From the IMG/VR virus record IMGVR_UViG_3300023184_000481, positions 1 through 25,331 of that record: a stretch of DNA of 25,331 nt; one strand, written 5' to 3'. The position numbers and the translations under genes were made by a program. Source of the stretch: a virus. How positions within the stretch are numbered: the stretch's first letter is position 1; each line of letters starts with the position of its first letter. Below, one piece after another: positions 1-16,571 of the stretch. The notes under the pieces are model-generated. The model saw nothing but the letters and a program-made list of their open reading frames with translations, was not told where the DNA came from and ran no database searches.

Positions 1-2345
1 TTCTCTTCACGCCACTGGGCAGCGGCTTCAACAAACTTGTTGTAGTCGTTGTCAACAAAATCGTCGACAGTTTTGTAGCCAGCCTCTTCAGCTTTTTGCT
101 GGAGGAACACGGCCTGGCGTGCAGCGTCGTCCGCAATTTGGACAATCTCTTCGCGCTTACTAAACGCAAAAGGGGCACCGGTTATATCGACGTCCTCGCT
201 GTAGGTAGCGTTCTTGGCCAAGACCAAGGGGCCGATCTGGATCACCTCATCAGCACGAACGATTGGCTGCATGGTGTCGCGGTTGTAGAAGTAGCTGTGG
301 CGGAATGGGTCCATACCAACCTGCACCCAGGCTGGGTCCGTCATCGCGGCCTTTGCGCGGACCGTGGCGGCTGCATTGCTGATCGGCTTCCACTTACCCA
401 GCACCGTGGCGATCGTGCCCTTGGCTGAGCCTGTAGCGATCTTGGCTGCGGCCTTCTGGTTCATGCCAAAGGTAACGTCAGTCAAAGCACCGACTGATTC
501 ATAGCCGACCACCGGGCCAGCATCGTATGCGGCCTGGACTTCACGGTTGGTTGACTTCGGTGTGTGCACGCTGACCACCCATGCGTCATGCAATTGGTAG
601 GACGGAATATCCAGGCGCAGCTGCGCCCAATCTCCGGTCTTGAGGGTCTTGGATGGCAAACTGTATTTGGCTGCCTTCTCGGGGCTCTGGCCCTTGCCCG
701 TGGCCAAGGCATAGCGTGCCTCGGATGCTGTCGTCAGCTTGGGCATTTCCTTGTATGGATAGACCGGGCGCACCTGGTCAACCATGCGGTTGTATTCGGT
801 GCGTGTGATCTTGCCTTCTTGCAAATCAGCGACGGCTTGCTGGAGTTGCTCGGTCCGTTTGAAGCGATCGGCAGATGTATCAGATACGCGACTGGCTGCC
901 GCGTTCTTTTGCTCAGCCCGGGTTACCGGCACTATGACTTTGCGTGCCACGATGCCCTGGCCAACGTCTCGCTCGGTTGCGTAACGCACGGGGTTTTCCA
1001 GGGGGTACAAATACTTAACACCACCTGGGGCGATGTCGAACTTGGAATCCTTGGGCACCAAGGTTTGGTCACGATATTTATCAAATTCTTTTTGGGTAGT
1101 GACTTTGATGGGTTCGCCAATCGTCACTGCGCCAATTGCCTTGGCCGGACCTTCGCCAGTGCGGACGATTGCCACGCGCTTGCCAACATAGGGGCGCAAC
1201 GAATCCGATGCCCTGGTTTCCAGTGTCTTTTTTCCGTCAATGATTTTGTCGGCGTACTTATTGTTTCCGTCCTGATTTACGTTGATACCAATGCTTTCAG
1301 GTATACTTGGTGACATGGACTTCGACTTCAAATCCTTACCGCCCGGCACCATGTTCTTTGACTGGAACGAAGTGCCTGTGACAGTGGCTCCCAACTGGGA
1401 CTCTGCCACCGCCTGGTTGCCAGCGCCTGAGCCGCGCAACCCTTCGGACGTGCGGGAAAAAGGAGACCCAGTCGACAAGGCTGAGTTTGAACGAGTCTTC
1501 AAAGCATTTGCTTCACGCGCCAAATAACCGTTGTAGCCCTCAGAATAAATCTGCTTTTGCAGGTCAACCATCTTGGTCTTGACAGGGCTCTTCGGCATCT
1601 CCCGCTCAAACGCATAAATAGCATGGCCCAAATTCTTGGCTGCCAACATCTCGGGCGTGCTAATCTGAATCTCTGCAACCGACCCATCTTCCAAGGTCAC
1701 GTTTGTAAGAATGTCTTGATACCCGGTTGGCAAGGGAGCACCCTCAAGCACAGCACCATCAGGGCTTGTCAGATCAACCGCCAAGCGGTTTTTAATTCGG
1801 TCGAATGAATACACCTTGCCAATTTGATTGATCGCTTCCTGGGCTTCCTGGAAGGTATTGACCACGATCGTTCCGCGCAACAAGTCTTTCATGGTTGTCG
1901 GGTCGTTGCCGTTCTCAGTGATCAGCTTGGTCACCGCTCTGGCCACGCTTTTAATTCCAGGCTTCTTGGCGTATCCGCCCAGGCCCTCGGCGATCTGGTC
2001 CAGGGTAGTGTCAAAGTCTGCCTTGTTGCGCGTGGCCGCATCAAACAAGGGCTGAAGCGTAGCCGCGCCATCAGCGCGTTGCTTGGCTGTAAGGGTATCG
2101 GGTGCCTCGGCTTTTTTGTACTTGGCAATTGCGGCCTCAGCGGCTGCCAGTGTGCTTGGCTTGAGTACGTCTTTGGGTTCTAGCTTGGGCACGGCTTGGC
2201 GCTTACTCAGCGCAGGCGCGATGACTGTACCGGGCAGCAAGTGCTCCAGGCCCCCGCTGGCCAGGTACGCTTTGAACGCGGCTTGGCCTTCGATGACGCG
2301 CTCTTTGCCGTTTGCGTCGGTGAACCGATACGTGCAGTTGGCCAT
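1..2345 (-). CDS. Polyvalent phage protein with RelA/SpoT-like and ASCH domains (partial, 3' end off window)
   Basis: An open frame starts at ATG 2345, four bases after the ferritin stop, and stays open to the left edge, giving at least 781 residues with no stop seen. Residues about 150-245 read as a RelA/SpoT-type nucleotidyltransferase: DLLRGTIVV at 154-162, DRIKNRL at 182-188, GYQ at 208-210, EIQIST at 225-230 and H241, matching the family's R-G-x-I, GY-x-S and E-x-Q-I-x-T signatures. Residues about 350-465 carry an ASCH (RNA-binding-like) signature, GKKTLETR at 371-378. Residues about 560-715 (LRLDIPSY, WVVSVH, VGMDPFRH) form a third module that I recall from other giant phage proteins but cannot name. 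Family knowledge: such mixed-domain proteins are usually packaged in the virion and ejected into the host. The order of domains and the strict open frame make the gene certain; enzymatic activity is inferred. The remaining C-terminal part lies outside the window. Confidence 0.85.
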   Translation of the reverse strand, partial: MANCTYRFTDANGKERVIEGQAAFKAYLASGGLEHLLPGTVIAPALSKRQAVPKLEPKDVLKPSTLAAAEAAIAKYKKAEAPDTLTAKQRADGAATLQPLFDAATRNKADFDTTLDQIAEGLGGYAKKPGIKSVARAVTKLITENGNDPTTMKDLLRGTIVVNTFQEAQEAINQIGKVYSFDRIKNRLAVDLTSPDGAVLEGAPLPTGYQDILTNVTLEDGSVAEIQISTPEMLAAKNLGHAIYAFEREMPKSPVKTKMVDLQKQIYSEGYNGYLAREANALKTRSNSALSTGSPFSRTSEGLRGSGAGNQAVAESQLGATVTGTSFQSKNMVPGGKDLKSKSMSPSIPESIGINVNQDGNNKYADKIIDGKKTLETRASDSLRPYVGKRVAIVRTGEGPAKAIGAVTIGEPIKVTTQKEFDKYRDQTLVPKDSKFDIAPGGVKYLYPLENPVRYATERDVGQGIVARKVIVPVTRAEQKNAAASRVSDTSADRFKRTEQLQQAVADLQEGKITRTEYNRMVDQVRPVYPYKEMPKLTTASEARYALATGKGQSPEKAAKYSLPSKTLKTGDWAQLRLDIPSYQLHDAWVVSVHTPKSTNREVQAAYDAGPVVGYESVGALTDVTFGMNQKAAAKIATGSAKGTIATVLGKWKPISNAAATVRAKAAMTDPAWVQVGMDPFRHSYFYNRDTMQPIVRADEVIQIGPLVLAKNATYSEDVDITGAPFAFSKREEIVQIADDAARQAVFLQQKAEEAGYKTVDDFVDNDYNKFVEAAAQWREE

Positions 2346-2349
2346 GTGA

Positions 2350-2841
2350 TTAAACGCCCAGTTCTTGGTCGATTAAGAGCATGCCCGCTTTGTCGCCGTC
2401 CACAAGTTGAATGCGTGCCAACAAGTCGCCGTACTCACCAACACTGGTGCGTTGAATTTCCAGGAACTGAAGCAAGAACTGTTGGACCACAGGATCATCC
2501 GATGCCTGGCCGTACCACTTCTTGTAGTCGTTGTACAGCTGGAGCTCGGTTTCATACCCGGTTTCGATTGCATCGCTCAATGTCTTGATCGGCTCATCCA
2601 TCGCTTCGATCATCGGCACCTTGGCCACAGTGCCAACATCGTTTTGAAACTCGACGTGCAACTGGTAGTGCTTGAGCTCGTCTTTGCTTTCCTTCAAAAA
2701 GAATTTAGCCGTGCCTAAGTAACCCAGACGCTGCACCTCATTGGCAATGTGCTTGTACAGATTTGATGCGTAAAGTTCTGAGTGGACCGCGTCGTCCAGC
2801 ATGTCTTTGCATTCTTGGGAGATGATCATCTTGGGTGTCAT
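2350..2841 (-). CDS. Ferritin-like (FtnA-type) iron-storage protein
   Basis: This 163-aa protein aligns by eye along its whole length with bacterial ferritin FtnA (about 165 aa), including the LIDQEL tail that matches FtnA's FIDKEL. Ferritins form 24-subunit shells that oxidise Fe(II) at a di-iron centre and store the mineral. The A-site ligands are present as E22, E55 and H58 (motif DELKH), and B-site equivalents as E99 and Q130. The residues that would match FtnA E126 and E130 (third, C site) appear to be I129 and S133, so that site looks lost. The start has a good ribosome site (GAGGACC, then AAC and ATG) and follows the giant polyvalent gene by eight bases. It lies between two polyvalent genes, so it is likely expressed late with virion proteins. 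Whether it enters the virion or acts in the host cell cannot be told from sequence. A Dps or rubrerythrin identity is less likely because length and motifs fit Ftn. Confidence 0.88.
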   Translation of the reverse strand: MTPKMIISQECKDMLDDAVHSELYASNLYKHIANEVQRLGYLGTAKFFLKESKDELKHYQLHVEFQNDVGTVAKVPMIEAMDEPIKTLSDAIETGYETELQLYNDYKKWYGQASDDPVVQQFLLQFLEIQRTSVGEYGDLLARIQLVDGDKAGMLLIDQELGV

Positions 2842-2849
2842 GTTGGTCC

Positions 2850-5800
2850 TCAGTCGCAGTTGATCTTAACCAGGTCGGAGTCTTCCAACTCAGACAGGAT
2901 GTCGAGAAAATTCTCTTGTACGTATTTGATTTGTGCGCCGTCTGGTCTGGCAGTATATGCAGCCTCGGCGCGGGTCTTGGCCAGGCCGCGTTTGTTTAAT
3001 CCGTCGAAGATGGTTTCGAGGTTTGATTGTTGCTTGCTAAAGCTGATTGATCCCGAGTTGCCCCAGTCGTATTTTTTGCTGTATTCGTCAAAGACGGATT
3101 GGACTCTAGGCGCGAGAACAGTTCTGGCCCAGTCAAGAACATCGGATCGTCCGGCGGCACTGAGCCTTTGTACGTAGCCTTCCCCATTCGGGTTCTCCTT
3201 CCAGTTGTTGGTGGGCATATCTCCGCTTGACGCAAAGATACGGTAATCAAAGTCCGGCAACACGGACTCAGCCACTTTTACAATTTCAGATTGCAAAGTG
3301 GGGTTGTCGATGATACCGAAACTTACCAGGCGAATGCCACTTGGCGAGCTGATCATGGCAAAAGAATCTTGCCAATTGGCTTTTCTGTTGTCAGCCATCC
3401 ACACGCCGAGGGCCTGCTCCAGGTCAGCGGCTTCGGCTGGGTTGATCACCCGGCCCAGGTCGATGTCCAAACCGTTTGCATCGCGCTTCGTGCTGGCGTA
3501 GAAGGCACGGTGCCAGCCCACCCCCTCTTGCCGCGCAACAAGCCCGGCCACGGCAGCGTACAGATTGAGCGCCTCCGCTTGAGCTGGATCGACTGCAATT
3601 TGGCCAGCCGGGCCTTTGGCCGGGGCCATAGCCACCAGCTTTTGTGAGCTGGGCGAAACCTCACCCTGCCACACGCCTGGGGCCAACACGTTGTGCGTGT
3701 CAACCAGCAAGCCAAGCAACTGAGCCAACCGATCAGCGCCGGTCTCGTCCAGGAACGCGGCTTGCACGGCTTGTTGAAATTCAATTTGCTGGGCGTAGGG
3801 TGCGTTATGAATGCCAGGCAGAACGCCCGTGCTGCGGCCAGGGCGGGCTTCAAATGAGATTTGTCCGATGTGGCGCTTGAGGCCATCACCAAAATCAAAT
3901 TTGGCCATCTGCGTGTCTTCGGTAGACGGGTCGTGATCGAATGAATGCTGGAGCCAGTTGTCGCGATGGGCCTTCTCATCCAGGATCACGCGGACCTTTG
4001 ACTTCTTGCCGGTCTGCGGGTCGACCTTATTGTCAAAACGAATCCAACCGTTCTTTGCGCTGCTGGCCTCGGTGTCTTTTTTCACACCGGCGTTTTCCAT
4101 GCGGGCTTTCATTGCCACCCAGATAGCAGCCTGGACCTGTTGCGGCTCCCAACCCAGCGCCTGAGCCAAGCGGTTGGTCTCGTTTTCCATGAACGCGTAT
4201 TGCGTAGATGTGGGGGCGTCGGTGTCGTACTGCCCGGCTCGCATCATCCACATGTCAATGGTTGCGCCTTGCTTGCCCTTTGTTGATGGGTCAATTTCGC
4301 GCAACAGGTTGAAGAAGAAGTTGCCCGTCTTTTCGCCAGACCAGAATTCGTCGACGTTGTCCAAAGCCTTCTTGGCTTTTTCGTCCATCACGCCAGTCTT
4401 CACGCTGATAGGCTGCCCGGCCTTGTATTGAGCCCATGCGCGTAGGGCAAACGTCGAGTTGGCATCCACCTTAGCCTGCGGAGAATAGATGGCCAGAAGG
4501 GCTACAAACTTGCGTGCCTCTTGCACGTCGCCGCCCACCATTTTCAACACTTCTCGGCTGCTATTCTCATACCAATAGCGACCAGGTGCGCCTTCGTTTG
4601 CCAACTGGCGTAACCAGCGACGCAGAGTGGTGATCTTTGCAGGCGTGTTGAACTTCTCAGGTGCACCCAAGTATTTGCCGTCTTTGACGGGCAATCGTTC
4701 AAGCACTGTGCCGCCACGGCTGTATGCCAGCTTGCGGCCTTCAAGAGCGGCACGCACGCGCGGGGCGTTGGCGTTGGTAAACGCAACACCGTCTGGCAAC
4801 ACGCGGCCAGTCACGCCCTCGGGCATGAGAGCGCGAATCTCTTCCGGGTTACCGGTTACTTTGATCGATCCGTCTTTTTCGGTGGTGACCTGGTATGCGC
4901 CAACCGCTTTATCTTTTTGCTTTGTGCTGAAACGCACATCGCTGCCAATGCGCTCCAGCTCAGCGTTGGCTGCTGCGGTTTGTTCAGCTGGAATCTCCAG
5001 GCTTCCCATGCGCATCTTGGCACCTGGGATTTTGGACACGTCGATTGCGTTGGCCTCGCGCGAGAGCAGGCCCTTTTTCAACGTGGTGGGTGCGGCTGCC
5101 TGGGGTAGCGGGGCTGATGCCGGCTGGCCGATCTGTGCAACCGGCACGGCTTTGTGCTTTTGGCCAAGCAACACAACCGCTGCCTGGTTGTTTCCGAAGG
5201 GTGCAATGTACCCGTCGAATCCAGCATTGATTACTGCGGACTCAAATCCATTGAGGTCGGCTTGGGGTCTGATAGTCCCAGTCTGTGGATCGTAGATGTT
5301 GTCCAGTTTGACTTCGTGTGCATAGCCACCCACGCCAGACTCGGGTCTAATACCGGACCCTTGGTCGACGTAGAAGTAGATGCGGTTTTTAAGGCGCGGA
5401 TCAGTGCTACTGTCCAAGCGATTACGTTCTGCCCCTTTAAGTCCTCGGCCATAGTAAGCTCCGCTTAGAGATTGTTGGGGAGACGACGAGTAATGACGTC
5501 CGATAACTGAGATTGCGCCCGGTCTGCCTGTGCCGTAGCTTGGGACCTCAGCACGCCCAGCTTGATTAGATTCTGGTCGAGCTGATGTTGCAACTCCTGG
5601 TACGTTTTGATTTCCGGCAACGGCATTGTTGGCTGGTCCATTGGTGGCTCCTTCAAATTGCTGGAGTGTACCCTTGCGATATGCAACCAGTGCATCGCGG
5701 GCAGTCATCTTGGCGCGGTTCAAATCTTGAACGTATTTGTCAACCCGTGCTGATTCGTATTTGCCTTGCTTTGATGTGCCGCGCAAACGATCAAGCAAGC

Positions 5801-8660
5801 CGTCAATGATCTTCAACCACTTGTCGACAAAGCCTTTGAACCCTTGAGGATCAGCCTTGGCCACATCGGCCCAAAACTTCTTATCGGTGGCGCGGTTGCC
5901 CAGGAAATCGGCAGTCATCTCTGACCGGGTCAACGGCGCGGTCATGTACTGTTGAATGCGTGCTTCGCGCGCAGCCGGGTCTGTGATACCGGCCAAGTCC
6001 TCTTTGTGCAAGAAGTTTTCGATGTAGGCGCGTTTGCCTTCATCGGTCATGTCATCAAAGATGCTGTCAATTTGAGACGTGAATTGCTGAGCCGGGGTGT
6101 TGGTCAAACCGGCGTCGGCCTCAGCCTTTGCAATCTGTTCAATCGTGTGCTTGAACTCATGCAGTGACGTGCGGCCCACGTTGATGGCGACGCTGCCCGT
6201 GTTGACAAATCCCGTGCCGGCAATTGCCACACCGTTGGGCGCAGACGGGTTTGTGTCGTGATACGCAAACAGGCGCGCGCCAAACTGGCTGTTCAACGCC
6301 TGGCCAATCTGGCTTACGGCTGAAGTTTCTTCTGGGGGTGCTGCGTTGAATTGGATTGGAGAAGCCACGCCCTGGGAGGTCGCCCAGCGATCAATAGATC
6401 GTTGAGCATTCGCTCGCGCTGTATCGGCTCCAGGGAGCTCGCTAACCGGTGCAGGAGCGCCGTTCCGCACTGGGGTTGACCCAAGGGTGCCGGTGACGTC
6501 CGGGATGGTCTCTGTGGTGGCTGCTGGTGCATTGGGTGCTTGTTCAGATTGACGGGCCTTCAGCTCAACCTCTGCGCTTCTGCGCGTGATGGCTGAGACG
6601 TTCGAGTCGGCAATGGTCGCTGACAGCTCATCGTCTGTCAAGCTGGAAGCGGGTTTACCCTGGATGCTTTGTGGGCGTGGCGCATTCATGCGCAACTTGT
6701 CCAAGCCAAACTGTTGTTCCGTTTCCACGTTGACATCTGGACCGGGGGTCAGGGCCAGGGGTTCATTGGTCAATGTGGGCTCAATGCGGCCAGGTGCCAG
6801 GGGTGGCAGCTCGTTGGTCAGTGCGGGCTCGCTGGGCGTACCCTTCAACTCACCGATCAACGCCTCCATTTCGTTTCTATCGGCAGGAGTCATCTGGTCA
6901 AAAGGCACGGCTATCAACTCATTAAGCCTTACTCGACGCGGATCAGGCGCGGGCGTGACCGCGTTCTCCGGCACCAGCATCTCGTTGAGATTACCGGCCA
7001 GCTCATTGGCCGCGCCCGTCATGTCGTCGACGTTGGTCGCTTGGCTCAGATTAGATTGCGCCCGATTGACACGCGCTGTCTGTGTGGGGCTGATGATGTT
7101 GGCGTCGTATGACTGGACATCAAAGGCGCGGCGGGCTAGGGCCTCGTTGATTGCCGGGTTGAATTGCGTATTTGCAACGCCTTGGTCCAAGGCTTTGGAC
7201 AGAATGCCTTCAGGGCTTGTGGGTTCCGTCAACCTACGCACGACTGGCGCGGCAACCTTACCAGCGCCGCCCATGACCAGGGTCTGAGCAGTTGTTTGAT
7301 AGAACGTGTCACCGACCGCTTGCAGGTAGTCGGCCAAGGTGGCGTTAGGCGTAATGCCAAAAGATGCCCACTTATCGGTGCCAAAGTTAAGCGCGGTTGT
7401 AACTTGTTCGGCTACGTTTTCTTTGGCCAAGTACTTGGCAAACGCAGGCAGAATTTGCTCGACGGGTAAGCCTTTGACCAAGTCCCTAAAACCTTTCATC
7501 AGCGGAGCCGGTAAGCTGGCCATCTCACCAATCAATTCACTGGTGCCCAAAGCGGTTGCACGAGCAAACGCGTTGCCCCCAGACAAGCCAGCAGCCCGAC
7601 CATTTCCATACTCATCGGTCACGACTTGGCCAACCATGGCCGACAAAGCTAAGGTCGGACCAACTACAAAGTAGGGCGCGACGTTGGTGATTGCGCCAGA
7701 CACGCCCTCTTCGACGAACGCCAGGGCTGCGTTTGGATTGGTGCCGATAGCCTCAAGTTTTTGCTTGGCTTCTTTTTGCAGAATCGCATTGCCGCCAGCC
7801 AGCCGTCTACCAAAATCAGTAACACCTTCGGTGCCCGTGACTTCGCCTACGGTTGATGTCAAATCACCAATTAATTGCCATGCGCCAGCGGTGCTAGAAC
7901 CAAATTGATTTACGACTTTGCCGTATGCCGCTTTTCCGGCAGAAGTCAACTCATCCAAGCCGCTGGGTTTAATTGTGCGGGCAGTGATCAAGCCCCCGGT
8001 TTCTTCCTGGACAAGTTTATTTTCCGGCCTGGCAAATTTGGCTTTAGTTTCAAAATCAAAAGTTGAAGGCTTAGCTTGCGCCAGGGGCTCAGATACTCCC
8101 CCTTGGCCAGCTTCTTTAGTGGCCAACGCGTCTGCGCTTTTTGCCTCCATACCCTGATCAATTAAACGGTCTCGACGTGCCTCACGTCGTGTATCAAAGA
8201 CTTTAGCCGTAGGCGTTTTTTCTATGGAGGTATCGAGCTTTTTATATTGATCGGCAATCGTTTTAAAAACTGTGCCATTCACGCCAGAAGATTTAAGCAA
8301 AGCCTCACGCTCATCCGGGGTGGCTGCGTCGTATGCTTTTTTAAGTTGGTTGAACCTGTCTTCTGAAACAGGCGCACCGCGTTGCTCGATCAGCGGCGCA
8401 GGCTTTTCAACTACGCGGCCCGTCAACACACTGGACGCGCGGTTGACCTCAGTGGCGGCACTTGGGTTTTGCGCCATGATGGCCGCACCAAAATCATCGC
8501 CCATGGCGCTGCTTGTGTCGGCTTCCGCTACGGACGCACGCGTAGTCTTGACCGGGCTGGCCGCTGGCTCGCGCTTGGCTTCAACCTCAAGCGGGACAAA
8601 ACTGTAAGGCTTGCTATCCTCTTCAGTGTCTTGCGTCAGCGGTACAAATTCGTATGCCAT
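2850..8660 (-). CDS. Giant polyvalent protein: zincin, ADP-ribosyltransferase-like and helical C-terminal regions
   Basis: A 1936-aa protein, the largest in the window. Residues 2-8 and 18-24 carry a doubled Y-x-F-V-P-L peptide. Hydrophobic helices at about 315-350 could help cross a membrane. A long proline- and Asn-rich linker follows. HEFKH at 834-838 is a zincin metalloprotease signature (HExxH), with a possible third ligand in SEMTADFLG further on. Residues about 1055-1165 resemble the ART-like domain of polyvalent proteins: RHYSS with H1056, YYGRGLKGAER, YFYV at 1095-1098 and a final AAVVLLG strand. Residues about 1330-1480 (YSPQ ending at Q1395, TIDMW with D1469) recall phage helix-hairpin-helix glycosylase-like domains, but only weakly. 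By family knowledge such proteins are ejected with the DNA to counter host defences. The start, three bases after the preceding stop, has a weak ribosome site, which suggests translational coupling. Confidence 0.85.
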   Translation of the reverse strand: MAYEFVPLTQDTEEDSKPYSFVPLEVEAKREPAASPVKTTRASVAEADTSSAMGDDFGAAIMAQNPSAATEVNRASSVLTGRVVEKPAPLIEQRGAPVSEDRFNQLKKAYDAATPDEREALLKSSGVNGTVFKTIADQYKKLDTSIEKTPTAKVFDTRREARRDRLIDQGMEAKSADALATKEAGQGGVSEPLAQAKPSTFDFETKAKFARPENKLVQEETGGLITARTIKPSGLDELTSAGKAAYGKVVNQFGSSTAGAWQLIGDLTSTVGEVTGTEGVTDFGRRLAGGNAILQKEAKQKLEAIGTNPNAALAFVEEGVSGAITNVAPYFVVGPTLALSAMVGQVVTDEYGNGRAAGLSGGNAFARATALGTSELIGEMASLPAPLMKGFRDLVKGLPVEQILPAFAKYLAKENVAEQVTTALNFGTDKWASFGITPNATLADYLQAVGDTFYQTTAQTLVMGGAGKVAAPVVRRLTEPTSPEGILSKALDQGVANTQFNPAINEALARRAFDVQSYDANIISPTQTARVNRAQSNLSQATNVDDMTGAANELAGNLNEMLVPENAVTPAPDPRRVRLNELIAVPFDQMTPADRNEMEALIGELKGTPSEPALTNELPPLAPGRIEPTLTNEPLALTPGPDVNVETEQQFGLDKLRMNAPRPQSIQGKPASSLTDDELSATIADSNVSAITRRSAEVELKARQSEQAPNAPAATTETIPDVTGTLGSTPVRNGAPAPVSELPGADTARANAQRSIDRWATSQGVASPIQFNAAPPEETSAVSQIGQALNSQFGARLFAYHDTNPSAPNGVAIAGTGFVNTGSVAINVGRTSLHEFKHTIEQIAKAEADAGLTNTPAQQFTSQIDSIFDDMTDEGKRAYIENFLHKEDLAGITDPAAREARIQQYMTAPLTRSEMTADFLGNRATDKKFWADVAKADPQGFKGFVDKWLKIIDGLLDRLRGTSKQGKYESARVDKYVQDLNRAKMTARDALVAYRKGTLQQFEGATNGPANNAVAGNQNVPGVATSARPESNQAGRAEVPSYGTGRPGAISVIGRHYSSSPQQSLSGAYYGRGLKGAERNRLDSSTDPRLKNRIYFYVDQGSGIRPESGVGGYAHEVKLDNIYDPQTGTIRPQADLNGFESAVINAGFDGYIAPFGNNQAAVVLLGQKHKAVPVAQIGQPASAPLPQAAAPTTLKKGLLSREANAIDVSKIPGAKMRMGSLEIPAEQTAAANAELERIGSDVRFSTKQKDKAVGAYQVTTEKDGSIKVTGNPEEIRALMPEGVTGRVLPDGVAFTNANAPRVRAALEGRKLAYSRGGTVLERLPVKDGKYLGAPEKFNTPAKITTLRRWLRQLANEGAPGRYWYENSSREVLKMVGGDVQEARKFVALLAIYSPQAKVDANSTFALRAWAQYKAGQPISVKTGVMDEKAKKALDNVDEFWSGEKTGNFFFNLLREIDPSTKGKQGATIDMWMMRAGQYDTDAPTSTQYAFMENETNRLAQALGWEPQQVQAAIWVAMKARMENAGVKKDTEASSAKNGWIRFDNKVDPQTGKKSKVRVILDEKAHRDNWLQHSFDHDPSTEDTQMAKFDFGDGLKRHIGQISFEARPGRSTGVLPGIHNAPYAQQIEFQQAVQAAFLDETGADRLAQLLGLLVDTHNVLAPGVWQGEVSPSSQKLVAMAPAKGPAGQIAVDPAQAEALNLYAAVAGLVARQEGVGWHRAFYASTKRDANGLDIDLGRVINPAEAADLEQALGVWMADNRKANWQDSFAMISSPSGIRLVSFGIIDNPTLQSEIVKVAESVLPDFDYRIFASSGDMPTNNWKENPNGEGYVQRLSAAGRSDVLDWARTVLAPRVQSVFDEYSKKYDWGNSGSISFSKQQSNLETIFDGLNKRGLAKTRAEAAYTARPDGAQIKYVQENFLDILSELEDSDLVKINCD

Positions 8661-8663
8661 GAG

Positions 8664-9905
8664 TTACTTATTGCCTCGAACGTAGCCAAGAAGTTTGCCC
8701 GATTTGTCTTTCATCTCCCAACCCTTTGCAGTCTTTACACCGATTGAAGCTCCAGGCGGTGCACCTTTCACCTCGGCAATTGACGGAGCTTTTTCTTCAG
8801 CGTCACCCACTTTAGGTGCGGCGTCTGTCTTGGCCGCAGGCGCAGCCTCTGACATCTTGCCAGTCAGTCTTTCTTGAGCTCGCTGTCTCTTTTCTGTTTC
8901 AGACAACTTCTTAAACGTAGAGCTCTCTTCTTCCATCTTGGCGATGGTCCTAGCAACTTCTTTGTTAAACGCCGCGCTTTGCATAGGCTTGCCGTCTGCC
9001 TCCAGCAGGGGCTTGCTTGTGCCGTCGCTCATGATCAAAACCATGTTGCCATTGGAATCTTCTTTGGTACTCTGAACGCGAGGAGCCTTTGCACCGCCAG
9101 CATCTTTGGCTTTGACAGCCTGGGCATTGTTCTCATTGATTTGAGATTTGCCCAAGGGTGTAGTTGAACTGTCGCCAGTAAAGACGTTGAGCTTCTCGCC
9201 GCCTTCAACCTTCATGCGCTCTTTGGCCAAGGACGCGCCAACGGCTTCGCTGCCAGCACCTGGCTTAATGTTGCCAGCCAATACGCCTTCACCAACGCCA
9301 GTTTGTAATCCTTGCTGACGACCTTTCATTACATCGTCGTAATGACCACCCAAGGCATAAGACTCTTGAAGGTCGCCCAGCTTTTTCATCTTGGCCTTGT
9401 ACTCAGCCTCAAAGCCCGGAGGCACATCCATCTTTGTTTCGGCAGATACCTGCTCTGCTGTTTGGCCTTGATACGCGCCCATGCCAGGCGCGGCCTGGGT
9501 AGTGACTTTTTGCAAGAACGCGCTTTTGTCGCCAGTCTTTAGTGAGTTGTAAAACCTGGTGTACTCAGGGACTGTCATATCCATCTTGGCCGCAGCCCAC
9601 ACTTCTTGACTGCCGCCTGGCTTGATGTCTTCCATGTTGATGCCGCCGCCTTTGCCGCCGCTGGAGCTACCGCTCTTACCGCCGCCAGCGTCCAGCTTCA
9701 TTTCAAGCAGTTCGCGCTTCAGATCGTTATTCTCTGTGCGCGCGTCTTGACGATCTTGCAGCCTGGCCATCCACTCTTCTTTTCGCGCGGCTATGCGCGC
9801 GTCACGGTCGGCCTCATCCCCGATGCTTTTGAACATCAGGTTTCCGATGTTTGCGCCAAAGCCGCTGATGGCCTGGCCAACATTGCTCATTACAAGTCCG
9901 GCCAT
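8664..9905 (-). CDS. Probable internal virion / ejection-associated protein
   Basis: A 413-aa hydrophilic protein of unknown family. A short N-terminal segment rich in Gly, Ala and Ser (residues 1-30) is followed by a strongly charged helix at about 30-70, probably a coiled coil (DEADRDARIAARKEEW and following), then a Gly/Ser/Lys-rich linker at about 73-92. The rest is Lys- and Ala-rich and looks loosely structured. The last 30 residues (GVKTAKGWEMKDKSGKLLGY) resemble a small tail motif that I have seen at the ends of other phage ejection-type proteins; this is from memory. A good ribosome site (GGGAG) overlaps the end of the preceding gene, two bases away, and the giant polyvalent gene follows after three bases. 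The place between putative internal proteins and a polyvalent protein suggests a virion or ejection role; the exact function is unknown. Confidence 0.7.
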   Translation of the reverse strand: MAGLVMSNVGQAISGFGANIGNLMFKSIGDEADRDARIAARKEEWMARLQDRQDARTENNDLKRELLEMKLDAGGGKSGSSSGGKGGGINMEDIKPGGSQEVWAAAKMDMTVPEYTRFYNSLKTGDKSAFLQKVTTQAAPGMGAYQGQTAEQVSAETKMDVPPGFEAEYKAKMKKLGDLQESYALGGHYDDVMKGRQQGLQTGVGEGVLAGNIKPGAGSEAVGASLAKERMKVEGGEKLNVFTGDSSTTPLGKSQINENNAQAVKAKDAGGAKAPRVQSTKEDSNGNMVLIMSDGTSKPLLEADGKPMQSAAFNKEVARTIAKMEEESSTFKKLSETEKRQRAQERLTGKMSEAAPAAKTDAAPKVGDAEEKAPSIAEVKGAPPGASIGVKTAKGWEMKDKSGKLLGYVRGNK

Positions 9906-9907
9906 GA

Positions 9908-10357
9908 TTAAGCTCCCTGCTGTTGCTCAAACACCTTCGGATCAATCTTATCCATAGACTGCTGGAGCTGAGATGTGTCCACGCCATTTTCGCCAAGATA
10001 GCGCAACAGCATTTGTTTAAAAGCGTCTGCCGCATCTTTTGGCGTGATGCCCAGCTTCAGGGCTTCGGCAATGTCAACAACTTCTTTCAGAATTGCCATA
10101 CCCAACAACGCAATCAATTCACGCGGCACTTGGCCTTGTGTCTTTTCATCGACTGTGGTGGTGAGGTCATAGGCAATGTTGGACAAAGCGTCTACCTTGT
10201 CTTGGCCAGAGCTTAATTGTTTAGCCACATCGTCGGCTGCGTCTTTTTCATACAAAACGCTCATGGCAAATTTCAACGCCTGAACAAAGGCCGGATTGTT
10301 TTCATCCACGCCTTCAGGTTCTGGCGCACTCATCTTTTGTTTAATTAGTCCAGCCAT
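9908..10357 (-). CDS. Small helical phage protein, probable virion component
   Basis: A 149-aa acidic, helix-rich protein with no family that I recognise. A stretch at about 80-95 (PRELIALLGMAILKEVV) is amphipathic to hydrophobic but not a clear membrane span, and the C-terminus is rich in Gln and Asp (residues 128-149). The ATG at 10357 has a good ribosome site (AAAGGAATTACC) right after the stop of the previous gene. It overlaps no other gene and sits in the ejection-protein block, directly before the 413-aa protein, so a structural or scaffold-like role inside the capsid is the simplest guess. There is no catalytic signature. Confidence 0.65.
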   Translation of the reverse strand: MAGLIKQKMSAPEPEGVDENNPAFVQALKFAMSVLYEKDAADDVAKQLSSGQDKVDALSNIAYDLTTTVDEKTQGQVPRELIALLGMAILKEVVDIAEALKLGITPKDAADAFKQMLLRYLGENGVDTSQLQQSMDKIDPKVFEQQQGA

Positions 10358-10367
10358 GGTAATTCCT

Positions 10368-11417
10368 TTAGGCGGTTGTGGGGGTCATGTATTTTGCAGC
10401 CAAGCCGGTTTGCGCGGGCGCATACGCTTGGGTCGCGCGTGCGCGAGCCTCAGCATACGGGTCCCAAGCCTGGTTTTGAGATTGATAGATTGGTTCTTGC
10501 GCGTTAGGGTCCCACAGCTGAGAACCCACGTTGGTGTTGTAACGAGAGCGGGCTTCCTCAGCCATGCGCTGTTCGTATTCGCGCTGTTCTCTCAATGCTT
10601 TCTCTTGAGCTTGGCCTTGAATGTAAGCACCGCCAACTTGCATGCCCCCGCTGATCAAAGCAGGCGCGGTGTATGGGCTGTTCCAAATACTGCTCATCAC
10701 TCCAGGTGAATAGGGGGTGTACAGCGAGTTGGCATAATTAACGCCGTTTATACCGGTGCCGCTTGTGTATCCAGCACTTTGGTAAACCCCGGTTGGCGCA
10801 GTAACACCGCCACTTGATACATTTGAACCTAAAGAGTACTGATTGGTTGGGGTGCTAAGGTCCGTTATAAATCGACTATCGTTTGCCCCCTTAGCTATGA
10901 CATCGCCCGAAGAAGCTGGATTAAGCGGCGCAGTTTCAACCGAAGCCCCTGAATTTACTGGGGCTGTAACAGATTCGGGAGCCACCGAAGCTGGCGCGTT
11001 TGCACCTTCAGCCAACGACACAGTCGGCTGACTTAAAGCAGCCGCATATCCAGGGCTGGTTGCCGCGCCAGCCTGAGCGGCAGTTGACCAAGAGCTTCCA
11101 AGCGTAGAACCAGCTTCAGCAAAGTTACCGGCCATGGCGGAGGTCCAAGCACTGGAGAGGCTGGATGCCGCACTCGACACTCCAGCCCCCATCCCCGTAA
11201 AGAACGATCCTCCCCCTGCGGCAGAACTGTAGCCGCCTGCTATGGCGGCCCCTCCAAAGTAAATTGCACCGGCAATCAGAATCGCTTTGCCAATGTTTGA
11301 GCTGCCAATGTCTTTAACAACGCGGCCTATGCCGTTGCCAACATCTTTAACAAGATTGACCGCGCCCTTAAGGACGCCGCCGATAGCGTTACCAACGCCT
11401 GAAACTGCTTTACTCAT
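10368..11417 (-). CDS. Probable internal virion protein with hydrophobic N-terminus
   Basis: A 349-aa protein. Residues 1-40 form a Gly/Val/Lys amphipathic repeat (SKAVSGVGNAIGGVLKGAV and onward), followed by a hydrophobic span at about 43-63 (GKAILIAGAIYFGGAAIAGG) that could insert in a membrane. A low-complexity Ala/Ser/Gly middle follows, and near 265-295 a charged helix (QAQEKALREQREYEQRMAEE) that may be a coiled coil. Tyr- and Pro-rich segments end the protein. This layout of a membrane-active N-terminus, disordered centre and coiled coil is common in phage ejection or pilot proteins, but I recognise no named family. It overlaps the preceding GNAT gene by ATGA, so the two are probably translationally coupled. 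Confidence 0.7.
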   Translation of the reverse strand: MSKAVSGVGNAIGGVLKGAVNLVKDVGNGIGRVVKDIGSSNIGKAILIAGAIYFGGAAIAGGYSSAAGGGSFFTGMGAGVSSAASSLSSAWTSAMAGNFAEAGSTLGSSWSTAAQAGAATSPGYAAALSQPTVSLAEGANAPASVAPESVTAPVNSGASVETAPLNPASSGDVIAKGANDSRFITDLSTPTNQYSLGSNVSSGGVTAPTGVYQSAGYTSGTGINGVNYANSLYTPYSPGVMSSIWNSPYTAPALISGGMQVGGAYIQGQAQEKALREQREYEQRMAEEARSRYNTNVGSQLWDPNAQEPIYQSQNQAWDPYAEARARATQAYAPAQTGLAAKYMTPTTA

Positions 11418-11860
11418 ATTGATACCTCTCGAACGTAAGTTAAGTTGAGAGACTCTCGCGAGAACCCAACGCGTTTGAAAAACTTCACCAGGCGCACATC
11501 TACACCTGGCTCCAATGAAATGATGGCCAACTTAATGCCTGATCTGCTCTTGACCCACTTGGCAAACTCGCGGATCAACTGAATGCCCGCGCCTTTGACG
11601 GTGGTGTAGAACAGCAAAACTGAACACTGCATGCGCTCAAACCAAAAACTCTTTTGAACACATGCAGCAAACGCGGCAACGATCTTGCCGTCTTCGTCTT
11701 CGGCAACCCATGCAAAGTGCGCCGGGTTTAACAAAACTTTGCCCGTCGTTTCCATTGCTTCCCTGTCGATCTTGACTGGCAGCGGATCGTTTGACACAGA
11801 GATAATGGCCAGCTCGATGACAGCTGGAAGGTCTTGTAGTTTGGCTTTTCGATAGATCAT
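11414..11860 (-). CDS. GNAT-family N-acetyltransferase
   Basis: A 148-aa protein with the GNAT layout. It opens with an N-terminal RKAKLQDLPAVIEL helix; the strands FAWVAEDEDGKIVAAFAAC (about 49-67) and MQCSVLLFYTTVKGAG (about 77-92) lead into the acetyl-CoA pyrophosphate loop. The loop reads KGAG at 89-92, without the usual Arg or Gln two residues before the first Gly of the R-x-x-G-x-G pattern. The C-terminal part (VRLVKFFKRVGF, about 122-133) matches the usual family ending. Family members acetylate amines on proteins, small molecules or tRNA; the substrate here is unknown. ATGA overlaps link it to the genes on both sides, so it is made together with ejection proteins. A modifier of a virion protein or a host target is possible. 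Confidence 0.85.
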   Translation of the reverse strand: MIYRKAKLQDLPAVIELAIISVSNDPLPVKIDREAMETTGKVLLNPAHFAWVAEDEDGKIVAAFAACVQKSFWFERMQCSVLLFYTTVKGAGIQLIREFAKWVKSRSGIKLAIISLEPGVDVRLVKFFKRVGFSRESLNLTYVREVSI

Positions 11861-12864
11861 TTGGGTTGTGTGATGGGCGGAATGGCTGCACTATAAAACT
11901 TATTTGCCCAGTCTACTTGCGCATTTGCATAGGTGATCAGGTTAGTGATGGCTGCCTTTTTGGTATCCGCCGTCATCGTGCCATCGGACATGATCGCATT
12001 GACCCCGGACATGGTGGTGTTGGATATATTGGCCGCAAACGCGGTTGGGATGTTTTGCAAGTCGGCCTTGGCTTTAAACCCAATCTGCTCCAAGGCAGCC
12101 GCTTGCTGGTCATCTTGCAAAGCTGTTTTCTGTGCCCGGTCAAGAGCAGCTTGCTGGCTGACAAAAGTCTCTTGACCCGTTTGCAACGCTGTTTGTTGAG
12201 CTCGGTCCAGACCGGCTTGAGCGCCAGCAAAGTCTTGTTGCGCTTTTTGCAAGGCCGCTTGAGCCGTGATGCTTTTGTCGGTAAGGGCGACTTGTTGTGC
12301 GCGGTCCAACGCGGATTGGGCACCGGTAAATGTCTGTTGTGCAACTTGCAGCTTGGATTGCTGTTCGCGTTCCAGGCCAGCTTGGCCAGCGGTAAATCCT
12401 TGTTGACTGGCCAACTGTTCGGCCTGGAATGTCTGGGCACCTTTTTGCAAGCCAAACGTGTTTTGCTGACCGACGTTGAATTGACCGCCGGTGTTGGCCG
12501 CTTGCTGATTGGTCAAGCCCTGGTTAAAGTAAGTGTTGGCATCAGCTGCTGCAATTGGTGTGGCCTTCTCCAACATGGCCGAGACGCCTGCGCCTTGGGC
12601 CATAGAGCTGTTTAAAAGTCCCCGTGCTGCCATACCCTGCTTGGCTTGCGCGCGGGCCTGCTGCATGAGCGGGCTGTCCTCAGAGATGATGCGCTGCAAT
12701 TGGCCAGACGTGGTGTCCTGTGCGGCGTTTACTTGGCGCTGCACCGGGTCAAACTGGGCAGCAGTGGTGTCTGTCCCAGGCGTGAGCGTGCCGCCTGTGG
12801 TGCCGGACGCGTTGGTCGTGGCTGCCCCGGTCTGAATGTCAAAGGGATTTGCTGCTGTTGCCAT
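11857..12864 (-). CDS. Hendecad-repeat coiled-coil protein, probable virion component
   Basis: A 335-aa Gln/Ala/Thr-rich protein. From about residue 150 to 255 it carries 22-residue units built from 11-residue (hendecad) repeats; typical units read FTGAQSALDRAQQVAL, FAGAQAGLDRAQQTAL and FVSQQAALDRAQKTAL, with one 11-residue half unit in the middle. Hendecads predict a long, nearly straight coiled coil. The N-terminal 90 residues are low complexity; residues 265-335 are helical with no motif that I recognise. It opens a new gene group after the lysis cassette: its ribosome site GGAG follows the T-run of a terminator directly, five bases before ATG 12864. By position and composition it is likely an internal or tail protein; no enzyme signature is visible. 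Confidence 0.7.
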   Translation of the reverse strand: MATAANPFDIQTGAATTNASGTTGGTLTPGTDTTAAQFDPVQRQVNAAQDTTSGQLQRIISEDSPLMQQARAQAKQGMAARGLLNSSMAQGAGVSAMLEKATPIAAADANTYFNQGLTNQQAANTGGQFNVGQQNTFGLQKGAQTFQAEQLASQQGFTAGQAGLEREQQSKLQVAQQTFTGAQSALDRAQQVALTDKSITAQAALQKAQQDFAGAQAGLDRAQQTALQTGQETFVSQQAALDRAQKTALQDDQQAAALEQIGFKAKADLQNIPTAFAANISNTTMSGVNAIMSDGTMTADTKKAAITNLITYANAQVDWANKFYSAAIPPITQPK

Positions 12865-12873
12865 GTAAGCTCC

Positions 12874-12902
12874 AAAAGAAAAAGCCGCTAAGAAGCGGCT
12901 TT
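12874..12902 (-). terminator. Intrinsic terminator after the lysis cassette
   Basis: On the minus strand AAAGCCGCT, loop TCTT and AGCGGCTTT form a nine-base-pair stem (12902 to 12881) followed by TTCTTTT (12880-12874). It lies 55 bases after the endolysin stop. The T-run touches the Shine-Dalgarno sequence of the next gene, so there is no room for a promoter between them, which suggests that it reduces rather than stops transcription into the next genes. Confidence 0.8.
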
Positions 12903-12957
12903 CTGCGGACGTGAGGTCCCTACAACGATTTTATGCCATAGGGATGGTGGGCGCAAG

Positions 12958-13422
12958 TTACGCTTGCAATCCTGGTAAATACTGAGTCTTGCCAGCTACC
13001 TTGACTGCGGTCAGCTCTTGCTTTTTCAGATTGTCTGGGTCATACGAAGCGTGAACCCAGCCGCTGTCGGGTATACCCTGTGTATAAAACTCAAGGATCA
13101 ATTGCGTGTAATCGCAGTTGTCCATGATCCACTGTGCAAGATCAGCATTGGCCACGCCAGGAATTTCAATATCGGCTGCCTGGCCTTTGCAATGATCACT
13201 GGTCTTCGATCCTCCGACTGCGGCATTGGACTCAGGGCTGCGGTAGCCGCTATTCACGGTCACTGATTTGCCAAAGTGATCGCGCACGGGCTGAAGCACT
13301 TTTTCACACAGCAGTCGCAGGCTTTCGATTTCGGCTTCGCCGGGGGTGTTGTCCAGGCCCAGGCGTGTGGCCGTGTCTGACTTCGTGAGTTCTTTCAAGG
13401 TGAAGTTGGCTGATAAGTTCAT
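12958..13422 (-). CDS. Endolysin, peptidase M15 (L,D/D,D-peptidase type)
   Basis: A 154-aa protein with the M15 zinc-peptidase layout. SDHCKGQAAD supplies ligands H77 and D84, and WVHASY supplies H124; E111 in LILEF is the likely catalytic acid, and VNSGYRSPESN (about 56-66) is the usual substrate-pocket segment. These enzymes cut peptide bonds in peptidoglycan, and phages use them to open the host wall at the end of infection. There is no signal peptide, so it needs a holin to reach the wall. It overlaps the Rz stop by ATGA and is the last gene before a terminator. Length and motifs fit single-domain M15 endolysins of phages of Gram-negative bacteria. Confidence 0.93.
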   Translation of the reverse strand: MNLSANFTLKELTKSDTATRLGLDNTPGEAEIESLRLLCEKVLQPVRDHFGKSVTVNSGYRSPESNAAVGGSKTSDHCKGQAADIEIPGVANADLAQWIMDNCDYTQLILEFYTQGIPDSGWVHASYDPDNLKKQELTAVKVAGKTQYLPGLQA

Positions 13423-13889
13423 TTCATGTTCCTTAAGGTTTCGTAAGTTTGGATGCAGGTGTTGAGCTTGCGGATGGCTGCGTCTCCGTCGGCTGCGATC
13501 TGGAGAAGATCGGCAGCGACATTAGCCGATCCACCAGGTTCGGCTCCTGCTTCTCCGCTGTTACTTCCAGTGGCAGAGGCGGTATCTGAGGAGGGGCATA
13601 CGCTACCTTGGGTGGGGATTGACAGGCGCAAATTGCTAGTGGCAATATCAGCACGCAGCTTTGTCTCTTTAGTCTTTGCAACATTTTGAGATTTCCTCAG
13701 TGTTTCCGAATACGTTCGAGCAACTTCGCCCATGCGCTGCTCAGTCTGTCGAGCTTCAGCATTGAGACGAGCAACTTCAATTTGATTGCGATTTGATTCA
13801 TCATGTTTTCCTTTGTAATAGCCGCCACCAAAACTGGTGAGAACGGCGGTGATGATGCCTAGCAGCACCCAGGGGTTGAAGATACTCAT
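13419..13889 (-). CDS. Rz: i-spanin (Rz-like inner-membrane lysis protein)
   Basis: A 156-aa protein with an N-terminal membrane span (WVLLGIITAVLTSFGGGYY, about 7-25) and a charged periplasmic coiled coil (about 30-85), then Ser/Gly-rich sequence and a C-terminal helix with one Cys. This is the Rz layout: it spans the periplasm and, with the outer-membrane lipoprotein Rz1, fuses the two membranes in the last step of lysis. A lipoprotein frame with the Rz1 layout lies nested in the +1 frame of this gene, which strongly supports the call. ATGA overlaps join it to the two-helix membrane protein before it and to the endolysin after it. Confidence 0.9.
   Translation of the reverse strand: MSIFNPWVLLGIITAVLTSFGGGYYKGKHDESNRNQIEVARLNAEARQTEQRMGEVARTYSETLRKSQNVAKTKETKLRADIATSNLRLSIPTQGSVCPSSDTASATGSNSGEAGAEPGGSANVAADLLQIAADGDAAIRKLNTCIQTYETLRNMK
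13433..13684 (-). CDS. Rz1: o-spanin (Rz1-like outer-membrane lipoprotein), nested in Rz
   Basis: An 83-aa frame lies completely inside the Rz gene in the +1 frame. It starts MLQRLKRQSCVLILPLAICAC: basic residues, a hydrophobic core and a lipobox ICAC (mature Cys 21). The mature part is proline-rich (PPKVAYAPPQIPPLPLE), as in Rz1. Such lipoproteins sit in the outer membrane and bind the Rz coiled coil. The nested arrangement is the classic Rz/Rz1 overlap of lambda-like phages. The mature part is longer than that of lambda Rz1. Confidence 0.88.
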   Translation of the reverse strand: MLQRLKRQSCVLILPLAICACQSPPKVAYAPPQIPPLPLEVTAEKQEPNLVDRLMSLPIFSRSQPTETQPSASSTPASKLTKP

Positions 13890-14206
13890 GGCTTAGGTGG
13901 CTCATCGTTGTCGTTTGCCTCGGCCTTGGCAATGGCACTGGCCACCGCCTTAGAGCCTGAACGACCGGCAACGCCACCCAGCACGCCGGTGATGAACACC
14001 ATGATGGTGGAGATTTGCTGCGTGTACACCTTGTCGATGGGTGCCATGCCTGCCATAGGTTGGGTTACGAAGCTGACGCTGTAAAGAAACATGGCCACCG
14101 AACCTAAAAGAATCAGCATCAAAGCCGTGATCACGAACGCCCAAACACGGACTTCGATCTCTTCAACGCTTAGGCGTTGCTTTGAATTCATTACGACTGT
14201 TGGCAT
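13886..14206 (-). CDS. Two-helix membrane protein, holin candidate
   Basis: A 106-aa protein with two predicted membrane spans: VWAFVITALMLILLGSVAMF (about 21-40) and, after a short loop, ISTIMVFITGVLGGVAG (about 65-81). The C-terminal tail is charged (KAEANDNDEPPKP). This size and layout, just before Rz/Rz1 and the endolysin, fit a class II-type holin, which makes the lesions through which the endolysin leaves the cytoplasm. It starts in a TAATG overlap with the lipoprotein before it and ends in an ATGA overlap with Rz. I do not recognise the family; another membrane protein in this cassette could be the holin instead. Confidence 0.7.
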   Translation of the reverse strand: MPTVVMNSKQRLSVEEIEVRVWAFVITALMLILLGSVAMFLYSVSFVTQPMAGMAPIDKVYTQQISTIMVFITGVLGGVAGRSGSKAVASAIAKAEANDNDEPPKP

Positions 14207-14391
14207 TACTTCTTCTCCTGTTCAGGTTTAATAAGCTGTTCGGGGCAGGTGCCGGTGGCTGTGCAAATAGGGGGCTTGCATTCAGCGGTTGCCCAGTTCT
14301 TGGGGTCTTGGCATGGGTAGCGAAAACGCTCTTCGCATGCAGTTGCCAGCACCAACATAACCGACAAAATCCATATCTCAAAAATGTTCAC
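14206..14391 (-). CDS. Small lipoprotein, lysis-cassette member
   Basis: A 61-aa protein. I chose the GTG at 14391, because from there it reads NIFEIWILSVMLVLATAC: a short signal peptide with lipobox ATAC (mature Cys 19). A longer open frame upstream would put the signal peptide inside the protein. The mature part has four more cysteines (PCQDP, ECKPPIC, TGTC) and a charged tail. I recall similar Cys-rich phage lipoproteins near lysis genes but know no function. It overlaps the preceding single-span gene by 14 bases and the following holin candidate by TAATG. Confidence 0.72.
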   Translation of the reverse strand: MNIFEIWILSVMLVLATACEERFRYPCQDPKNWATAECKPPICTATGTCPEQLIKPEQEKK

Positions 14392-14608
14392 GTTTACTCC
14401 TTCGGTCAAACAGTGGGTTGTCAGAAAACTCAACTGGCTTTCGATTGTCGCGTTGTTGTTTTTCAATTTCGCGTCGAAGTTTCTGGACCTGTTCCAGTTG
14501 AACCTTGCTTTCGTGTTTCACTTCAAGGATGTCCAGGTACAGGAATGCAAGCAAGGGCAGCAAGAACGCTACGAGAATCACGGCAAGAACCCATCCCAGT
14601 ACACCCAT
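14378..14608 (-). CDS. Single-span membrane protein with charged coiled-coil tail
   Basis: A 76-aa protein starting at ATG 14608, which overlaps the stop of the preceding 233-aa gene as TAATG; a longer start at 14731 would overlap that gene by 124 bases and is unlikely. Residues 2-26 are a membrane span (GVLGWVLAVILVAFLLPLLAF), followed by a Lys/Glu/Gln-rich helix at about 29-56 with coiled-coil character and a basic C-terminus. The N-terminal span plus charged helix resembles a small i-spanin, but the basic tail could equally stay in the cytoplasm. Function unknown; it travels with lysis genes. Confidence 0.7.
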   Translation of the reverse strand: MGVLGWVLAVILVAFLLPLLAFLYLDILEVKHESKVQLEQVQKLRREIEKQQRDNRKPVEFSDNPLFDRRSKREHF

Positions 14609-15309
14609 TAAAGTATCCTCGCTTGTTTCAGCCACAGGAGCCACATCCACAGGTATCCGATAAGAGCCAAAGTCAGGAGGCTGGCTCCTATTTTTAGGTT
14701 GAGGTCCGCCTCTCTTTGCTGACGTTGCCATCGTTTCCTTTTCGCAATTGATTCTTGCGCCAGCCTGGCAGCCTCTTGTTCAGCACCAACAATTTCTCTC
14801 ATCTCGAACACCTTGGTGTACAGGGCCCCAAGCTCCGCCGGAGCGTTCCAGGTCATCGCCTCTCTTATGGTGACAACGAGCTGGTCCATCTGGTCTTGCG
14901 CCCTGACGCGCTTGATCGCGGCCTCCATGAGGTTGGCGCTTGGGTCGTACACGGTCCGAGACTTTTCCTCTTCCTCGCGTATGTGAGCCGCGAGCTGTTC
15001 CTGGATGTGGAAGAACTCGATGAGCCTGGCCACGACATCGTTCAAAATCTGCTGCTCATCGACGTCGACGAGTTTTTCTTTTTTCTTTGCCGCGACTTTA
15101 GTCGGGGTGACAGTCTTTGCCGGTGCCGGATTAAAGAACTGCACCAGCTTGGCAAAGAAGCCCTTGGCTTCCTTGCCGATCGCTATGACTTCGTCTGCTG
15201 TTTTCTTTACCTGGATGAACTGGGTTTTCGCCTCACGGTACAGGTCGCACCCAGCCTGGATTTGCTTAACTAGCCCGGCGGCAAGAAGGCACAGCGATAT
15301 GGGGTCCAC
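14608..15309 (-). CDS. C-terminally membrane-anchored helical protein
   Basis: A 233-aa protein starting at GTG 15309. It is mainly long charged helices, with a Pro- and Lys-rich linker at about 62-78 (NPAPAKTVTPTKVAAKKKEK), and ends with a membrane span at about 207-226 (IGASLLTLALIGYLWMWLLW) just before the C-terminus. No family is recognised. It sits at the start of the lysis cassette between two small membrane proteins. Its shape of a cytoplasmic helical body tail-anchored in the inner membrane would suit a regulator of lysis timing or superinfection, but no motif proves either. Confidence 0.7.
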   Translation of the reverse strand: MDPISLCLLAAGLVKQIQAGCDLYREAKTQFIQVKKTADEVIAIGKEAKGFFAKLVQFFNPAPAKTVTPTKVAAKKKEKLVDVDEQQILNDVVARLIEFFHIQEQLAAHIREEEEKSRTVYDPSANLMEAAIKRVRAQDQMDQLVVTIREAMTWNAPAELGALYTKVFEMREIVGAEQEAARLAQESIAKRKRWQRQQREADLNLKIGASLLTLALIGYLWMWLLWLKQARIL

Positions 15310-15313
15310 ATCG

Positions 15314-15511
15314 TTACAGCCCCAGGATTTTCTTTACGAAATCAGCAGCCACACCTGGGCCAAAGAGTACGGCAGCAATCACGATGTAGAGCTGTATCTC
15401 GATGGTGCGCATGCGAATCTTGCCCCGGTCCATGGCTTCTTCGATGTTGCGATACCGTTCAGTGCAAACAGCTTCATGCACAGCGAGTCTCGTTTCTGTA
15501 GTAGTTTCCAT
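15314..15511 (-). CDS. Small membrane protein, XhlA/holin-like
   Basis: A 65-aa protein: an amphipathic charged helix (residues 1-38: ETRLAVHEAVCTERYRNIEE and on) followed by one membrane span at about 39-56 (IQLYIVIAAVLFGPGVAA) and a short basic end. This layout resembles haemolysin XhlA-type holin partners. It starts three bases after the stop of the 47-aa gene and ends four bases before the next start. Role in lysis is inferred from size, topology and position. Confidence 0.65.
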   Translation of the reverse strand: METTTETRLAVHEAVCTERYRNIEEAMDRGKIRMRTIEIQLYIVIAAVLFGPGVAADFVKKILGL

Positions 15512-15514
15512 CGT

Positions 15515-16569: not shown

Positions 16570-16571
16570 GT

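Follow-up and report, generated by a model that had tools for sequence, protein, structure and literature searches.

What does a ferritin gene do in the late operon of a phage, between two genes coding for giant proteins? The question is raised by a virus record, 25,331 bases long, the whole of which was analyzed here and is hereafter referred to as the window. The features discussed below are collected in Table 1.

Table 1. Features of the ferritin locus and of the adjoining late genes (window coordinates)
Feature	Position	Strand	Basis
Ferritin, 163 aa, best called H-type, with a two-iron ferroxidase centre (E22, E55, H58, E99, Q130)	2350..2841	-	ORF, Pfam, AlphaFold2, alignment
Ribosome-binding-like TGAGGA, which overlaps the upstream giant's stop codon and stands 5 nt ahead of the ferritin ATG	2847..2852	-
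Upstream giant, 1936 aa, putative N-terminal half of an ejected protein that is split; single Cys at residue 1935	2850..8660	-	ORF, family-wide split and Cys pattern
C-terminal tail of the upstream giant, last 28 aa, ending KINCD; Cys codon 2856-2858	2853..2936	-	Conservation
Downstream giant, running past the end of the window (781 aa inside it); putative C-terminal half; only Cys inside the window is residue 4	3..2345	-	PF18760 in a homologue, Cys pattern
N-terminal head of the downstream giant, 36 aa, M-x-x-C-x-Y; Cys4 codon 2334-2336	2238..2345	-	Conservation, structure prediction
Three Cys-free genes, read as ejection proteins (8664-9905, 9908-10357, 10368-11417)	8664..11417	-	Cys count
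Further Cys-free gene of the same operon	11857..12864	-	Cys count

The ferritin and its class

A complete ferritin open reading frame is located on the minus strand of the window, running from position 2841 to position 2350. The 163-amino-acid product matches Pfam PF00210 (E 1.9e-16, 60.7 bits, cut-off 24.5), and solved ferritins also match it. Among all sequences covering each ligand, E22, E55, H58 and E99 are invariant in 138 of 138 and Q130 in 139 of 139. These are the ligands named in the original prediction of a complete phage ferritin, which is upheld and to which the minus strand, unstated there, is now added. An AlphaFold2 monomer prediction, made from an alignment of 35 phage relatives, has a mean pLDDT of 95 and consists of five helices, a four-helix bundle and a short helix E (residues 151-162). 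Foldseek superimposed the model on E. coli FtnA (1eum) with TMq 0.93 and TMt 0.95; the overlay on FtnA that had been proposed as a check thus gave the expected result. Based on the ligands and the modelled fold, the protein would be expected to have ferroxidase activity and to assemble into a cage.

The model falls on bacterial and archaeal 24-mer ferritins in general (E. coli FtnA 1eum, Thermotoga 1vlg and Archaeoglobus 1s3q; TM ~0.93), with which the window protein shares the fold with helix E and the E, E, H, E, Q diiron ligands. Unlike them, it has only ~20% identity in structural alignments, has lost the third-site glutamates of FtnA, is encoded in virion modules and belongs to a separate group on the ferritin tree. 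The designation 'FtnA-like' fails at the level of the equivalog: the score against the NCBIfam FtnA equivalog NF007638 is 32.1 bits, compared to a curated cut-off of 178, and E126, E129 and E130, the third iron site glutamates of FtnA, correspond to I129, T132 and S133. Position 133 is S or A in 137 of 138 aligned ferritin rows. Bacterioferritins are marked by a heme-binding Met after the bridging Glu and by E/H in the second-site positions; in the window protein E55 is followed by L56, and Q130 stands at the place of the bacterioferritin ligand. A Dps protein is not indicated either, as the ferroxidase site is complete within one subunit and helix E is present. Since both the third-site glutamates and the bacterioferritin heme Met are absent, the protein is best called, from its sequence, an H-type ferritin with a two-metal centre rather than strictly FtnA-like.

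Fusions of the ferritin to a giant protein or portal were looked for and none was found; no open frame exceeds 200 aa except for an upstream extension in one relative (L189). Another relative (L032:6001-6471) lacks seven helix B residues around KFFLKE and keeps all five ligands; this is either a genuine variant or an assembly error. In BFVD, two proteins of uncultured Caudovirales named prohead protease (A0A6J7WIS1 and A0A6J7WPK9) show a weak similarity to the ferritin model (E 0.02-0.12), a hint that ferritin-like domains may be joined to a head-maturation protein.

Distribution and conservation of the ferritin gene

Scans of IMG/VR and of one genome collection for this ferritin subfamily yielded 138 distinct loci, all metagenomic and nearly all on environmental viral contigs. 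The set includes a remote fecal scaffold whose ferritin is without phage-type neighbours (L035) and a few contigs from binned bacterial assemblies, which look phage-like (three matches in the genome collection). A tblastn search of 50,697 phage records revealed no close ferritin, only remote matches of 22% identity on unannotated fecal scaffolds, and no cultured phage carrying the same gene was found in a search of phage records. The claim that ferritins are rare in phages thus holds for cultured phages; among environmental virus contigs, in contrast, well over 100 carry the gene.

Loci were also collected by means of the conserved C-terminal tail of the upstream giant or the conserved N-terminal head of the downstream giant. 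Where the contig extends toward the ferritin, the gene was present in 108 of 108 such loci (43 found by the head and 65 by the tail); at the sole locus without it the contig ends there. The ferritin is a fixed, dedicated core gene of the lineage of the window. Its median dN/dS against relatives is ~0.1, which indicates purifying selection. On the ferritin tree the phage sequences form one group on a long branch away from pseudomonadotal FtnA, with the depth of this group provisional, the bacterial ferritins on the tree being from the single phylum Pseudomonadota. Counts across loci given throughout ignore kinship and are not phylogenetically independent, and genes were called by a simple script. 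Weak hints of hosts come from bins of Burkholderiales, Rhodoferax and Methylobacter, and from relatives of the portals, which infect Flavobacterium and Cellulophaga.

Genomic neighbourhood of the ferritin gene

The neighbours of the ferritin gene were annotated with PHROGs and by clustering, and an upstream neighbour could be read at 130 loci. At 94 loci this neighbour is, like that of the window, a giant ORF. At 27 loci the upstream neighbour is a portal of the phrog_6547 type, with scaffold-sized and capsid-sized genes following. A phrog_21 portal precedes the ferritin at two loci and a MuF-like gene, itself located after a phrog_113 portal, at two more; at three others it follows a phrog_12082 portal, either immediately or with one gene in between. 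At the remaining two loci it lies just upstream of a giant (L233) or beside a virion structural protein (L147). The ferritin gene is thus placed inside a head or ejection module.

The neighbourhood types are intermixed on the ferritin tree, and the phrog_6547 portal is common to phages with giant-adjacent and with portal-adjacent ferritin; therefore, the gene moved between virion loci. Judged from sequence, its carriers are a broad range of aquatic phages belonging to several unrelated types. The 'Ferrojan Horse' role offered in the original prediction, an idea that reportedly concerns iron in phage tail fibres, is not supported by these data: the genes with which the ferritin is associated are those of portals, MuF-like proteins and ejection proteins rather than those of fibres.

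The late operon of the window

In the window the ferritin gene lies in a minus-strand late operon between two giant ORFs, as had been claimed. The flanking proteins have the size of polyvalent, ejected giants (1936 aa and at least 781 aa), and the G002 homologue of the downstream giant contains PF18760, the ART-PolyVal domain (41.6 bits, cut-off 31.2), which bears out the term 'polyvalent' of the original prediction. Weak RelA_SpoT and ASCH matches were also obtained with the downstream giant. A Pfam search found only DUF7178 in the upstream giant of the window and no domain in that of G002.

The arrangement of the TGAGGA element is repeated in relatives, with a start/stop overlap taking its place in a distant group; from this layout, the ferritin appears to be translationally coupled to the upstream giant. 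The 28-aa tail of the upstream giant has a mean identity of 62% across 48 relatives, compared to 17% in the preceding stretch. For the head of the downstream giant a beta-beta-alpha cap is predicted with a pLDDT of 74, a moderate value to which we attach little weight. The sequence AACTGC occurs both at the tail of the upstream giant (KINC) and at the head of the downstream giant (MANC), forming a short direct repeat around the ferritin (2334-2858) that may be a coincidence or the trace of an insertion.

The gene at 10368-11417 has a weak tape-measure match. A GNAT acetyltransferase (11414-11860) is situated inside the Cys-free part of the operon and has a normal Cys content (2.0% in 18 homologues). 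It probably stays behind at ejection, as the ferritin probably does, and the ejected proteins might be its substrates.

One giant protein in two pieces

Phages whose ferritin gene lies at the portal have uncut giants (3557 aa in G012, 2543 aa in G014 and 1787 aa in G018), and in G013 an uncut giant of 2088 aa is followed by the ferritin. Upstream giants align to the N-terminal part and downstream giants to the C-terminal part of the uncut proteins. The halves meet at 1036/1057 in G013, at 1511/1562 in G014 and at ~2509-2526 in G012, and they are colinear in 20 of 20 phages where both match the same uncut giant. Support from the clade of the window itself is thinner, with a single relative mapped on the uncut giant of CF418P1 and a single one on that of MW202426. 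By these alignments, the flanking giants are two halves of one ejected protein, with the ferritin gene at the break. The change between the uncut and the two-piece giant may have been a split or a fusion, in either direction.

The two halves are marked by their cysteines. The 67 complete upstream and 75 complete downstream giants contain zero internal Cys in 220,766 residues, compared to ~0.7-1.0% Cys in whole phage proteomes. A Cys is, however, present within the last eight residues of the upstream giant in 64 of 67 cases and within the first ten residues of the downstream giant in all 75. The three exceptions at the C-terminus (L094-L096) are those with an unsplit giant. The window obeys the pattern, with Cys1935 of 1936 residues upstream and Cys4 downstream. 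Uncut giants have no terminal Cys, including those of phages with portal-located ferritin, and giants without any Cys were found in every cultured or named relative checked (elemo, Y3, CF418P1, MW202426 and StenR_269). Since ferritin also occurs together with uncut giants that bear no such tag, the Cys pair is a feature of the split rather than of the ferritin as such. The upstream giant of L233 (1246-5760), several genes away from the ferritin, has its only Cys at residues 1500-1501 of 1504, and the downstream giant (10850-18046) at residue 3; the pair is kept at a distance, and therefore tracks the split rather than adjacency to the ferritin.

Two other explanations of the tags were rejected. 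A ferritin-docking signal is ruled out by the untagged giants of phages with portal-located ferritin and by the non-adjacent pair of L233, and a DNA-level motif by the use of both TGC and TGT. Because each cut end bears the only Cys of its half, we propose that the two halves are probably rejoined through these residues by a disulfide or metal-thiolate staple. Neither the Cys pair nor the relation of the giants as halves of one protein had been noticed in the original prediction.

Lack of Cys was taken as a mark of vRNAP-like proteins, i.e., injected giants of the N4 kind, in the study of StenR_269 (PMC10747016), and we read the Cys-free gene set as ejected proteins. The ferritin does not avoid Cys (0.86%, compared to 0-0.05% in its operon neighbours and 0.77% in bacterial FtnA). 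Since its Cys content is ordinary, unlike that of the ejected set, the ferritin probably does not accompany the giants when these are threaded across the periplasm; we read it as a protein of the capsid or the cytoplasm that is produced along with the ejected set.

Possible roles of the ferritin

We hold it somewhat probable that the ferritin, with its intact ferroxidase centre, works late in infection with or beside the assembling virion head and ejection core. It would be made late, translationally coupled to head and ejection genes, would oxidize and sequester Fe(II) where the head and the ejection core form, and would possibly be packaged in the head. The break in which its gene sits would divide the giant ejected protein into two polypeptides, to be linked again via their terminal Cys. 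Work at the assembling head is our best guess because the ferritin repeatedly associates with portal, MuF-like and ejected-giant genes, and association with the virion is suggested by this gene position. Against it, the cultured relatives Y3 and elemo live without ferritin. The likelihoods attached to this and the following readings overlap in part and need not sum to one.

A tenable, if less probable, reading is that the ferritin manages iron only in the infected cell and is not part of the particle. It would reduce free Fe(II) and Fenton damage, or withhold iron during assembly, and its place in the operon would provide late expression only. The ferritin has a normal Cys content, as does the cytosolic-type GNAT of the same operon, and the Dps and Mn-catalase of gut phages and the Dps of Lactobacillus phages were interpreted as aids against oxidative stress (PMC8008677, PMC6669764). 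Yet any site in the late region would give late expression, while in phages that are unrelated the ferritin recurs beside genes for portals, MuF-like proteins or ejected giants.

It is doubtful that work at the assembling head goes as far as a packaged ferritin acting together with the split ejection protein, in which case a disulfide or iron-thiolate staple between the terminal Cys would be supplied or oxidized by the ferritin, and iron or redox state would control assembly or ordered ejection. We consider it quite unlikely that the ferritin is itself ejected cargo, its packaged subunits being threaded along with the giants into the next cell, where they would reassemble and handle iron or peroxide as infection begins. 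The loci are those of known injected effectors, with polyvalent, MuF and portal contexts (Iyer et al. 2017, PMC5512222), but the ejected set avoids Cys almost wholly and the ferritin does not. Moreover, a folded 24-mer cage, ~12 nm in size, would be too large for a podovirus tail channel. Finally, chance or recent capture of an ordinary bacterial ferritin as a passenger, conceivable given how common ferritins are in bacteria (as in our controls), is very improbable and already largely refuted by the fixed presence and purifying selection, by the single phage group on a long branch from the sampled bacterial FtnA and by the lack of a close bacterial relative, the three genome-collection matches being on phage-like contigs.

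Relation to known systems

Members of the ferritin superfamily were already known in phages: a Dps and a Mn-catalase in the gut 'Gratiaviridae' (PMC8008677) and a Dps-like protein of Lactobacillus phages, whose gene is near DNA-metabolism genes (PMC6669764). These are of the Dps or catalase type, whereas the protein of the window is a full ferritin, and its gene is associated with those for portal and ejection proteins. BFVD contains entries for further ferritin-superfamily proteins in phages. Ferritin and Dps have zero occurrences in Iyer et al. (PMC5512222), and cysteine and disulfide are both unmentioned in a review of ejection proteins. Our literature search found no description of the ferritin gene of the window or of the terminal Cys pair; with respect to the literature searched, it thus appears to be new that a full ferritin is fixed in a virion module and is encoded where an ejection protein is broken into two pieces, each with a terminal Cys. 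A true ferritin is fixed in an environmental phage lineage and tied to its portal and ejection machinery, not an occasional metabolic gene, and the question of iron handling by phage particles gains a concrete, testable subject.

The giants of the window resemble polyvalent and N4-type giants (PMC5512222; StenR_269, PMC10747016) in being very large, Cys-free proteins of a late operon, with ART-PolyVal in the G002 homologue. They differ in being made in two pieces around a ferritin, with a Cys at each facing end. A split giant with one Cys per cut end and otherwise free of Cys would be a natural experiment on how enormous proteins are threaded across the periplasm and rejoined.

The operon order of the window, i.e., GNAT, three small genes, giant 1 and giant 2, is also that of Pseudoalteromonas phage vB_Pun_Y3 (OR779980, PMC11654794), where giant 2 is annotated as an ADP-ribosyltransferase. 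Unlike in the window, there is no ferritin between the giants and no Cys in either: in vB_Pun_Y3 (L410:24147-37521) giants of 3421 and 1027 aa, with zero Cys in both, are directly adjacent.
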